Shown in pieces: positions 27,503 through 32,324 of a stretch of DNA of 33,038 nucleotides. The notes under the pieces are model-generated. The model had not been told where the DNA came from. It worked only from the letters and a program-made list of their open reading frames with translations, and made no database searches. The stretch lies in assembly GCA_030625575.1 (NCBI GenBank), contig DAOUQP010000009.1:1-33038 (forward strand), in the 5' to 3' direction. Position 1 is the first letter of the stretch. The number at the start of each line of letters is the position of its first letter. The DNA comes from Eubacteriales bacterium. Its GTDB lineage: Bacteria > Bacillota > Clostridia > Peptostreptococcales > Acidaminobacteraceae. Both the position numbers and the translations under genes were made by a program.

Positions 27503-28961
<1,459 letters not shown>

Positions 28962-28976
28962 TGCAACATGATTAAG

Positions 28977-29007
28977 TGGCTTAGGAAATATTTCTTAAGC
29001 CATTTTT
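28977..29007 (+). terminator. Rho-independent terminator after pyrR
   Basis: TGGCTTAGGAAA (28977-28988) pairs with TTTCTTAAGCCA (28991-29002) with one G-T wobble; TTTTT follows (29003-29007). It marks the end of the conserved chromosomal run. The 130 nt from here to the next promoter hold no recognisable gene. Confidence 0.9.
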
Positions 29008-29137
29008 ATATTGTAAATTTAATTGGCAGAATATGGGATTTGTATAGATAAATATTGGGAAAGAATAGAAAAATATACCTAATAATGTTAATGTAAGAAT
29101 ATAGATAGAAATTTTATATCATGGAGATTTCGTTTTA

Positions 29138-29183
29138 TTTACAAATATACTTATTTGGCTTATAATATAAGTATATTTGTAAA
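29138..29183 (+). promoter_or_regulatory. Palindromic operator-promoter of the abiE pair
   Basis: TTTACAAATATACTTAT (29138-29154) is repeated as its exact inverse ATAAGTATATTTGTAAA (29167-29183), a perfect 17-bp inverted repeat with a 12-nt spacer. The promoter is built in: -35 TTTACA (29138-29143) is the outer end of the left arm, and -10 TATAAT (29161-29166) lies in the spacer at 17-nt spacing. The right arm covers the expected transcription start. AbiEi-type antitoxins are known to repress their own promoters by binding inverted repeats, so this is the likely AbiEi operator. Confidence 0.88.
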
Positions 29184-29197
29184 GTGAGGTGATGGAT

Positions 29198-29791
29198 ATG
29201 AATAACCGTAAAAAATTAGAAAAACTCATTAAACAACACCATGGAACAATTTTAAGTGCTGATCTTGATAAGTATGAAATTCCGAGAACATACCTTTCGG
29301 TGTTGGTTGCTGAAGGAAAACTAGAGAGGGTCGACAGAGGAATTTATGTCTCATCAGATTCAGTTGAAGATGCGATGTTTGCAATGCAAAGCAAGTATTC
29401 TAAACTGATTTACTCTCATGAGACTGCACTCTATTTACATGGTCTGTCAGATCGGACGCCTTTTGAATATTCAGCAACTGTCCCCAGCGGGTACAAAGTG
29501 GTGGAAAATGTCTCAGAGCGGTTTAAAGTATATTACATCAAGAAAGATTTATATGCTATGGGTGTAACCGATACAAACACTTTATTTGGAAATGTTATAA
29601 AGGTATATAACCTTGAAAGAACAATCTGTGATATTGTACGGAGTAGAAATCGAATTGATATTCAAATTTTGAATGAAGCACTAAAGCGATTTGTAAAAAT
29701 AAAGTCGGCAGATTATTCGCTACTCATGGAATATGCAAAGAAACTCAATGTAGAAACAGTGATAAAGAATTACTTGGAGGTGCTCCTATGA
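29198..29791 (+). CDS. AbiEi-type antitoxin (type IV toxin-antitoxin)
   Basis: A 197-residue protein. The N-terminal winged-helix domain (about 1-50: HGTILSADLDKYEIPRTYLSVLVAEGKLERVDRGIYV) matches the AbiEi_4 antitoxin N-terminal domain. The rest (about 55-190) carries IYSHETALYLHGLSDRTP and VYNLERTICDIVR, typical of AbiEi C-terminal domains. It should neutralise the AbiEii toxin without direct binding and repress its own promoter. ATG at 29198 is chosen after GAGGTGAT; GTG 29189 and ATG 29192 overlap that site. It overlaps the toxin gene by 4 nt (ATGA). Such pairs act in phage abortive infection and plasmid or island maintenance. Confidence 0.92.
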   Translation: MNNRKKLEKLIKQHHGTILSADLDKYEIPRTYLSVLVAEGKLERVDRGIYVSSDSVEDAMFAMQSKYSKLIYSHETALYLHGLSDRTPFEYSATVPSGYKVVENVSERFKVYYIKKDLYAMGVTDTNTLFGNVIKVYNLERTICDIVRSRNRIDIQILNEALKRFVKIKSADYSLLMEYAKKLNVETVIKNYLEVLL

Positions 29792-30747: not shown

Positions 30748-30776
30748 TTGACAAATTAAAGTTTGGGGAATATAAT
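30748..30776 (+). promoter_or_regulatory. Consensus sigma-A promoter of the ATPase gene
   Basis: TTGACA (30748-30753), a 17-nt spacer and TATAAT (30771-30776) match the sigma-A consensus at all twelve positions. Transcription would begin near 30783, about 15 nt before the ATG, leaving a very short leader containing AGAGGTGAG. The preceding 135 nt show only a small hairpin (CTTAGT/ACTAAG, 30710-30726) without a T-run. Confidence 0.9.
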
Positions 30777-30797
30777 CCTTATTAAGAGGTGAGTGAG

Positions 30798-31991
30798 ATG
30801 ATTCCAAGAACAGAATGCTTAGACTTTCTCATACGGTCAAAAGATAAACAATTGATTAAAGTGATCTCAGGAATAAGAAGGTGTGGAAAATCAACATTAT
30901 TTGAGATTTATAAAGATTACTTACTTGATCAGGGTATAGATCAGGAACAACTTATATTTATCAATTTTGAAGATCTTCGTTACAATCATTTGCGAGACTA
31001 TATGAAACTTTTTTTATATGTAATGGAAAGAGTTCAACTAGATAAAATGAACTATATTTTTTTAGATGAGATTCAGCATGTACCGGAATTTGAACGAGTT
31101 GTTGATAGTCTGTTTATACAAAAAAATGTAGATATTTATATTACTGGATCAAATGCATATTTTATGTCTAGCGAATTGGCAACACTTTTGTCCGGGAGGT
31201 ATATCGAATTAAAAATGTTGCCTTTATCATTCAAGGAGTATTGTAGTGGCACAGATATTCAAAAGTCAATCACGGAAAAGTATCGAGATTATCAAATAAA
31301 CAGTTCTTTTCCATATGCAATAAGTATTATGAATGACAAAAAATTGGTTATAGATTATCTGGAAGGAATATTTAATACAGTTATTCTCAAAGATGTTGTT
31401 GCAAGAAACAAGATTGCTGATGTAGTGATGTTGGAAGATGTGGTGAAGTTCTTGTTTCATAATATCGGTAATCAAACATCTATAACAAGAATTGCTAATA
31501 CGATGACTTCAGATGGCAGAAAAATCGATCCAAAAACAGTAGAAAAATACATTAGAGCGTTGACTGAGAGTTTGATTATCTACAAAGCAAAAAGATACAA
31601 TATCAAGGGTAAGCAGTACCTGAAAACTTTGGAAAAATACTATGTAGTTGATATAGGTCTACGTTATATGTTGTTGGGAATGAGTCAAACAGATGTAGGA
31701 CATATTCTTGAGAATGTTGTTTATCTTGAATTAATACGCAGAGGATACGATGTATATGTCGGCCAATATGGTGATATGGAAGTTGATTTTGTGGCAATGA
31801 ACGAACATGGGATAGAATATTTTCAAGTAGCTGCTACAGTAAGAGACGAAAAAACATTGAATAGAGAGCTTAAACCATTACTTAAAATCAATGATCATTA
31901 TCCAAAATATTTATTGACTTTAGACGAAGATCCTGAAGGTGACTATTTAGGTGTTAGAAGAATGAATGCACTAGATTATTTCCTGAAATAA
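30798..31991 (+). CDS. AAA-family ATPase with DUF4143 C-terminal domain
   Basis: A 397-residue protein. The N-terminal AAA_14 domain carries Walker A G25-IRRCGKS32, Walker B with LDE at 89-91 (YIFLDEIQHV) and the sensor region YITGSNAYFMSSELATLLSGRY. The C-terminal DUF4143 region (about 195-390) includes a helix-turn-helix-like stretch (TSITRIANTM) and a nuclease-like end GYDVYVGQYGDMEVDFVA. These proteins are abundant and mobile in Clostridia and Bacteroidetes; their function is not settled. The GTG at 30789 is rejected because AGAGGTGAG serves ATG 30798. It has its own promoter and is apparently monocistronic. Confidence 0.93.
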   Translation: MIPRTECLDFLIRSKDKQLIKVISGIRRCGKSTLFEIYKDYLLDQGIDQEQLIFINFEDLRYNHLRDYMKLFLYVMERVQLDKMNYIFLDEIQHVPEFERVVDSLFIQKNVDIYITGSNAYFMSSELATLLSGRYIELKMLPLSFKEYCSGTDIQKSITEKYRDYQINSSFPYAISIMNDKKLVIDYLEGIFNTVILKDVVARNKIADVVMLEDVVKFLFHNIGNQTSITRIANTMTSDGRKIDPKTVEKYIRALTESLIIYKAKRYNIKGKQYLKTLEKYYVVDIGLRYMLLGMSQTDVGHILENVVYLELIRRGYDVYVGQYGDMEVDFVAMNEHGIEYFQVAATVRDEKTLNRELKPLLKINDHYPKYLLTLDEDPEGDYLGVRRMNALDYFLK

Positions 31992-32324
31992 TCGAAATCT
32001 ATGGGTGACATGGAAAGCTCCGAAAAACTAGCATAAATTTCGTGAAAATTTCTCTTAGTGAATTATTATTCATTTTACAGGTTATGGTGACGTTTAATGA
32101 CAATCAGACATTCGAACATTTTAGAATTTATTAATTTGAAATCAGATAAAAAATACTAATAACGTGAAGATATGTTTTTTCTTAAAATTGGGTATTAATA
32201 TCAAGTATTATATATTTAAAAATTGGAATGTTTTTCTTTACAAATATAGGTTTTGCGGAGAATAAAGTCAATGTTGTATAGAATAAGGCGAAAATTGCTT
32301 CTGAAACTAAAAGGGGGATATACA
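31992..32324. other. 333-nt non-coding gap
   Basis: This gap between the ATPase and the last gene is very AT-rich. It holds no frame longer than about 20 codons with a ribosome site and no clear terminator. Two weak promoter-like elements occur: TTTACA at 32237 and TAGAAT at 32279-32284, neither with a good partner. TTTACAAATATA at 32237-32248 exactly repeats the outer 12 bases of the abiE operator arm. I see no tRNA or structured RNA. Confidence 0.6.

Follow-up and report, generated by a model that had tools for sequence, protein, structure and literature searches.

A palindrome that encloses the abiE promoter of a member of the Clostridia is a probable AbiEi operator, with a second copy near the end of abiEii in some relatives

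The window, by which we mean the whole stretch of 33,038 bases that was analyzed, contains an abiE operon whose promoter is laid into a palindrome (Table 1). The abiEi and abiEii genes overlap by 4 nt (29788 to 29791), as in the abiE operon of S. agalactiae (PMC3985639), and the AbiEii profile of Pfam was aligned to the second gene over profile positions 1 to 235 of 238. The product of the first gene is 31% identical to the AbiEi protein of S. agalactiae and matched its solved structure (6y8q) by sequence with an E value of 7e-29. A structure model of the protein (pLDDT, 88.8; built from a 26-sequence alignment) had the same entry as its best solved-structure match (TM, 0.87), followed by M. 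tuberculosis Rv2827c (1zel; TM, 0.61). By fold and sequence, AbiEi of the window appears to consist of an N-terminal winged helix-turn-helix domain and an antitoxin C-terminal domain. After abiEii lies a gene for an AAA_14/DUF4143 ATPase (30748 to 31991; PADLOC candidate PDC-S01), which has a promoter match of its own at 30748 to 30776 (12 of 12 consensus bases).

Table 1. Features of the abiE locus in the window and distal operator copies in related loci
Feature	Position	Strand	Basis or remark
Dyad of 46 bp, two perfect 17-bp arms	29138-29183	.	putative AbiEi operator
Left arm	29138-29154	+	bases 1 to 6 double as -35; all 22 aligned operators have C5 and C13
-35 hexamer TTTACA	29138-29143	+	promoter search; 45 of 63 operators have a -35-like hexamer at this distance from the axis
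Spacer, 12 nt	29155-29166	+	second half is the -10
-10 hexamer TATAAT	29161-29166	+	begins at dyad axis; 50 of 63 operators have a -10-like hexamer no more than 0.5 bp from it
Right arm	29167-29183	-	mirror of left arm; spans the transcription start predicted from the -10
Leader, 14 nt, likely ribosome-binding site GAGGTGATGG	29184-29197	+	precedes ATG at 29198; sequence
abiEi, antitoxin and putative autorepressor, 197 aa	29198-29791	+	Pfam AbiEi_4; PADLOC AbiEi; PDB 6y8q
abiEii, putative nucleotidyltransferase toxin, 274 aa	29788-30612	+	Pfam AbiEii, E 2e-43; PADLOC; ORF list
Distal copies in relatives	L010 2937-2982; L194 3000-3045		own-operator match; L010, Fusibacter ferrireducens; L194, Acetoanaerobium noterae
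Distal copies in relatives, position given	L011 2935; L013 2933; L014 2968; L016 2936; L043 2937; L196 2960		
Further distal copies in relatives	L046, L050, L122		

An inverted-repeat search recovered two arms of 17 nt each, 100% complementary and 12 nt apart, at exactly the positions (29138 to 29154 and 29167 to 29183) where an earlier reading of the letters alone (here called the sequence-only reading) had placed a perfect 17-bp palindrome. Among perfect inverted repeats with a gap of up to 20 in the 33,038-base window, this one alone has arms of at least 13, the next-longest having arms of 12 and 11. About 0.0002 such repeats would be expected per window from its base composition, and when the 120 bases that precede the abiEi start were dinucleotide-shuffled 100 times, no shuffle equaled the palindrome.

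A promoter-like site of the sigma-70 type, found independently of the palindrome, occupies positions 29138 to 29166 and is composed of TTTACA, 17 nt, and TATAAT (11 of 12 consensus matches). As the sequence-only reading had it, the -35 lies within the left arm, of which it forms the first six bases, and the right arm covers the transcription start, which is predicted from the -10 position at about 29172 to 29174. Its further statement that the -10 fills most of the 12-nt spacer needs correction: the hexamer (29161 to 29166) takes up 6 of the 12 bases, the right half. Inverted repeats that overlap the -35 and the predicted start, with the -10 between the arms, are the arrangement of an S. agalactiae-type operon. 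A promoter on the opposite strand was considered and rejected, since the minus-strand -10 slot has one of the six bases of TATAAT. If the whole palindrome were transcribed, the RNA would fold stably (-15.7 kcal/mol), so that it might be an RNA hairpin or terminator rather than a DNA site. We regard this as very unlikely, because the predicted start inside the right arm leaves the operon's own mRNA without the left arm, no T run stands behind the palindrome, and the upstream gene already has a terminator-like hairpin (28974 to 29005). Besides that hairpin, the region from 28800 to 29500 holds one pair of repeats only, and a second pair of the Rv2827c type is absent from it.

Conservation was evaluated using a close set of 23 loci, the window included, with AbiEi proteins at least 52% identical; one locus (L018), where no in-frame ATG, GTG, or TTG was found, was added by hand, which gave 23 relatives. 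The palindrome is kept in 21 of these, with at least 13 of 17 pairs and in the same 46-bp register. A search for the palindrome beside close abiE homologues, which the sequence-only reading had named as a way to refute its proposal, thus came out in favor of it. The symmetric site is gone in one of the two other relatives (L017); in the second (L021) there is likewise no symmetric site, the left arm being altered and the right arm complete (17/17). In the former, Proteiniclasticum ruminis ML2 (positions 1300 to 1510), the operator is missing though abiEi is 70% identical; immediately upstream is an imperfect inverted repeat of 18 bp with 22 nt between its arms, which an insertion may have left behind.

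The 22 operators of the window and the 21 keepers were aligned, with L017 and L021 excluded. Positions T1, T2, A4, C5, A6, A7, A8, A12, C13, and A16 are invariant, as are the mirror positions G34, G42, T35, T40, T31, and A45; the remaining mirror positions exceed 90% except for the outermost, and the first half of the spacer is variable. Although the right arm is neither a -35 nor a -10, its counterparts of C13 and C5 (G34 and G42) do not vary, which counts for an operator. The -10 slot agrees with TATAAT at 5 or 6 of 6 bases in 18 of the operators and at 4 of 6 in four. Pairing was found in 91.4% of 374 cells, compared with at most 59% in slid registers. Eight cells, at four pairs, were altered on both sides, against a shuffled mean of 1.7 and with 0 of 500 shuffles as high; because the close loci share ancestry, these shuffle counts are not probabilities. 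Chance symmetry in AT-rich promoter DNA is what the base composition of the intergenic stretch (about 76% A+T) might suggest, and near matches to a single arm are common in the genome, where they are not enriched. Set against the expectation of about 0.0002 per window and the paired changes in a dyad that most relatives keep, this explanation has a negligible probability.

Seven close relatives that were fetched later (L113, L194, L196, L199, L212, L216, and L217) carry a dyad of 13 to 17 pairs and were left out of the counts, because their listing took in dyad-bearing loci only. In Clostridium luticellarii (L026; positions 1501 to 1974), a perfect operator (17/17) precedes an AbiEi of 158 codons without a stop, from which a segment including the recognition helix is missing. 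The toxin gene is only partial in the best tblastn segment of nine loci (L009, L012, L013, L017, L018, L021, L025, L026, and L047), which may represent broken toxins beside intact antitoxins or split alignments.

For a survey of the family, 165 AbiEi genes were gathered, 142 of which had at least 165 bp of upstream sequence, no N, and a match beginning by residue 20; 107 loci were left once AbiEi proteins at least 80% identical had been removed. The best dyad 25 to 60 bp before the start was scored, and the stretch 105 to 140 bp upstream served as a control. At least 12 of 17 pairs were found at the promoter in 62 of 82 non-redundant loci (control, 9 of 82), and base shuffles reached this level in 90 of 3,280 cases; the other 20 loci scored lower. 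Divided by distance, the loci at this level were 13 of 14 close ones (control, 0 of 14; shuffles, 25 of 560) and 49 of 68 intermediate ones (control, 9 of 68; shuffles, 65 of 2,720). The most distant AbiEi group gave no signal (3 of 25 versus 2 of 25 in the control). Arm sequences diverge widely across the family, and the pairing is retained.

The register of the dyad is locked to the promoter. We called 63 operators, namely, the 62 loci with at least 12 of 17 pairs and one locus with 97 bits, all selected on symmetry and not on promoter match. A hexamer with at least five TATAAT matches begins no more than 0.5 bp from the axis in 50 of them, and a hexamer with at least four TTGACA matches begins 23 to 23.5 bp before the axis in 45, ties between equal-scoring hexamers having been resolved in favor of the expected position. 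The spacing between the two is 17 in 43 of the 50 operators having both hexamers. At 11 bp from the axis, 89% of left arms and 90% of right arms have a C; at 19 bp, the shares are 79% and 78%, respectively.

The specificity of the site was evaluated with a core pattern of 12-bp half-arms and an allowed gap of 18 to 22. Exact matches were present in 5 of 391 genomes of the class, including that of the window, and all five had a 20-nt gap and an AbiEi match within the same locus. When the window's own genome was searched for the full core with up to two mismatches, only the palindrome had all 14 core bases; the other matches had two mismatches each and in total fell below the control (10 versus 23 per strand). 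Single-arm sites did not point to a regulon, being rarer (own genome, up to three mismatches) than those of a reversed-pattern control (41/44 versus 54/61). A lone left half-arm, TTTACAAATATA, was noted at 32237 to 32248 of the window, 3' of the ATPase gene, with no partner arm seen. On one viral contig (L220; 3513 to 3556), the same half-arms stand 22 nt apart, and no AbiEi or AbiEii match was found in the 5.1 kb analyzed.

Five further AbiEi-like genes are present in the window's genome (G000, contigs C32, C154 [two genes], C121, and C30). The gene on C32 (L070) has its own dyad of 14 of 17 pairs with quite different arms, which suggests that operators may be insulated from one another within one genome. 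Among 62 operators, differences in the outer half-site track AbiEi residues 27 to 37 (partial r, 0.25) and equally track residues 146 to 158 (partial r, 0.27), in permutations that leave shared descent in. Since the operator differences fit the C-terminal segment as well as the recognition helix, co-evolution is not cleanly separable from shared descent, and a recognition-helix code is a lead at most. Among the loci listed, those with an IPTxYL(T/S)R helix (L058, L060, and L083) bear GTTG in one arm or in both, and the AbiEi of S. agalactiae has the helix IPTIYLTR and the operator GTTGC. A strict rule linking this helix to GTTG was rejected because L076 (IPRVYLTR) has TGTTGC too.

The mapped abiE promoter of S. 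agalactiae is spanned by a repeat, perfect over 11 bp and continuing to 23 bp with 4 mismatches, and AbiEi binds the repeats and represses through them (PMC3985639). The protein produced two shifts, one shift in the absence of either repeat, and none in the absence of both, and single-repeat variants were still repressed; because the -35 is inside IR1, the IR1 deletion took out the -35 (PMC3985639). This 2014 paper terms the binding non-cooperative and remarks on similar repeats upstream of other abiE loci (PMC3985639). A later account of S. agalactiae describes two AbiEi monomers, positively cooperative binding, and DNA bending (PMC7319586). In S. suis, AbiEi binds equivalent repeats, both of which are required for repression (PMC11062541). 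On the need for both arms, the published accounts for S. agalactiae (PMC3985639) and S. suis (PMC11062541) disagree.

The window's site resembles IR1 and IR2 of S. agalactiae (PMC3985639) in its dyad over the promoter, the -35 in the left repeat, the 17-bp promoter spacing, and the C that each arm has 11 bp and again 19 bp from the axis; the S. agalactiae -10, when placed from the printed repeats and spacing, begins half a base pair from the axis. It differs from them in its pairing and length, with 17 perfect pairs over 46 bp (S. agalactiae: 11 perfect pairs, 19 of 23 overall, over 49 bp), and in its outer block, which is TTTAC rather than GTTGC. As in ICESsuHN105 of S. suis, there are two repeats in the abiE promoter, which in that element are bound by AbiEi and needed for repression; S. 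suis AbiEi also binds oriT and the sezAT promoter (PMC11062541), whereas no second full 14-base core is present in the window's genome. In M. tuberculosis rv2827c-rv2826c, inverted repeats over the promoter are likewise bound by an AbiEi-like protein, but there the repeats are 23 bp long and come in two pairs, each with 13 bp between its members, and binding shows negative cooperativity (PMC7319586); the window has a single pair. The overlap of operator and promoter, described in the sequence-only reading as tighter than that of a simple upstream operator, is real but not special, since it is the published AbiEi arrangement of S. agalactiae (PMC3985639). The S. agalactiae-type AbiEi operator is already a known kind, and the window, judged by its sequence, is a further instance.

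Taking these results together with the S. agalactiae analogy, we consider it very probable that AbiEi represses its own type IV abiE toxin-antitoxin operon through the palindrome. Against this count the two close relatives that have no symmetric site, the 20 of 82 non-redundant loci with fewer than 12 of 17 pairs, the lack of signal in the most distant AbiEi group, and the perfect operator of L026. The proposal of an AbiEi operator over the -35, the -10, and the predicted start was strengthened by the conserved dyad, the paired arm changes, and the recurrent geometry, and its extra details (one face and a dimer) were not. The site could instead be the operator of another regulator that controls abiE, with AbiEi not binding to it, a reading for which the equally good fit of operator differences to the AbiEi C-terminal segment leaves some room. 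It is a very improbable one, given that abiEi is preceded by the dyad in many genera as well as on two viral contigs, that no other site in its genome has all 14 core bases, and that the AbiEi proteins of S. agalactiae (PMC3985639) and S. suis (PMC11062541) bind equivalent repeats.

The arm centers are indeed 29 bp apart, but this distance corresponds to 2.76 turns at 10.5 bp per turn and not to the three turns on which binding to one face had been based. C13 and G34 are 21 bp apart (2.0 turns) and C5 and G42 are 37 bp apart (3.5 turns), so the two blocks do not all lie on one face, and one-face binding is not supported by the spacing alone. The suggested dimeric or cooperative AbiEi does not agree in its first part with the published binding of one monomer per repeat; cooperativity has been reported both ways (none in PMC3985639, positive in PMC7319586). 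In the operator proposed here, each arm most likely receives a single AbiEi monomer, which docks via its winged helix-turn-helix. Each arm may be read as two blocks, an outer TTTAC, which on the left arm doubles as the -35, and an inner ACT about 10 to 12 bp from the axis. Once bound, possibly with the cooperativity and bending described for S. agalactiae, AbiEi would hide the -35, the -10, and the start, and we propose that sigma and RNA polymerase would thereby be excluded and the operon repressed. A drop in AbiEi would open the promoter, and antitoxin and toxin would be resynthesized together.

A second palindrome at the end of abiEii was detected in relatives by a scan for extra operator copies. 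For the downstream tests, a locus needed a called dyad upstream and sufficient downstream sequence, which left 36 loci in one set and 75 in the other, both including the window. In the 36-locus set, which consisted of loci with an intact toxin ORF, the stretch from 20 bp before to 250 bp after the abiEii end was compared with the locus's own operator. A match of at least 24 of 34 arm bases occurred in 8 of 36 loci and in none of 36 in either the upstream or the in-gene control; at 20 or more, there were 14 loci, versus 5 and 4 in the respective controls. Seven of the 8 copies begin 10 to 49 bp past the abiEii stop, and that of L122 begins 10 bp before it. In the 75-locus set, the higher threshold was reached in 8 of 24 close loci (8 of 23 relatives when the window is not counted) and in 2 of 51 distant loci, with all ten copies located 843 to 876 bp beyond the abiEi end.

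Thirty arm shuffles per locus hit a score of 24 at least once in 8 of 24 close and 4 of 51 distant loci but never 26, whereas all eight close loci with a distal copy score at least 26 of 34; these eight are non-independent and by eye represent perhaps five lineages. For the two distant copies, the own operator surpassed all 62 others by a narrow margin (24 versus 22 and 25 versus 22). The -10 slot of all ten distal copies has at most 4 of 6 TATAAT matches. In L196, L010, L043, L011, and L013 (the last being outside the 75-locus list), the copy is followed by a GC-rich hairpin that has a T-rich tail and by eye resembles a terminator. No downstream copy is recognizable in the window, where the best match scored 20 of 34 and shuffles reached up to 23. 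A literature search, which covered few subscription journals, returned no relevant paper on an operator copy at the abiEii end.

We tentatively raise the possibility, which we think less probable than its opposite, that AbiEi in this clade acts from a pair of operators: the one inside the promoter and the distal copy, which lies at the abiEii end and lacks a good -10. The two sites might bridge the 1.5-kb operon as a loop, or the distal site might act as a roadblock or a titration sink. If this were true, the distal site would have been lost from, or never present in, the operon of the window.

The repressor-site layout known from S. agalactiae appears to extend to a broad set of AbiEi loci in the class and to some beyond it. 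It provides a rule for finding candidate operators: the -10 begins at the dyad axis, and the outer recognition block is at the same time the -35. Less expected is the distal site of relatives, which offers a testable addition to ideas on how the level of type IV systems might be set.
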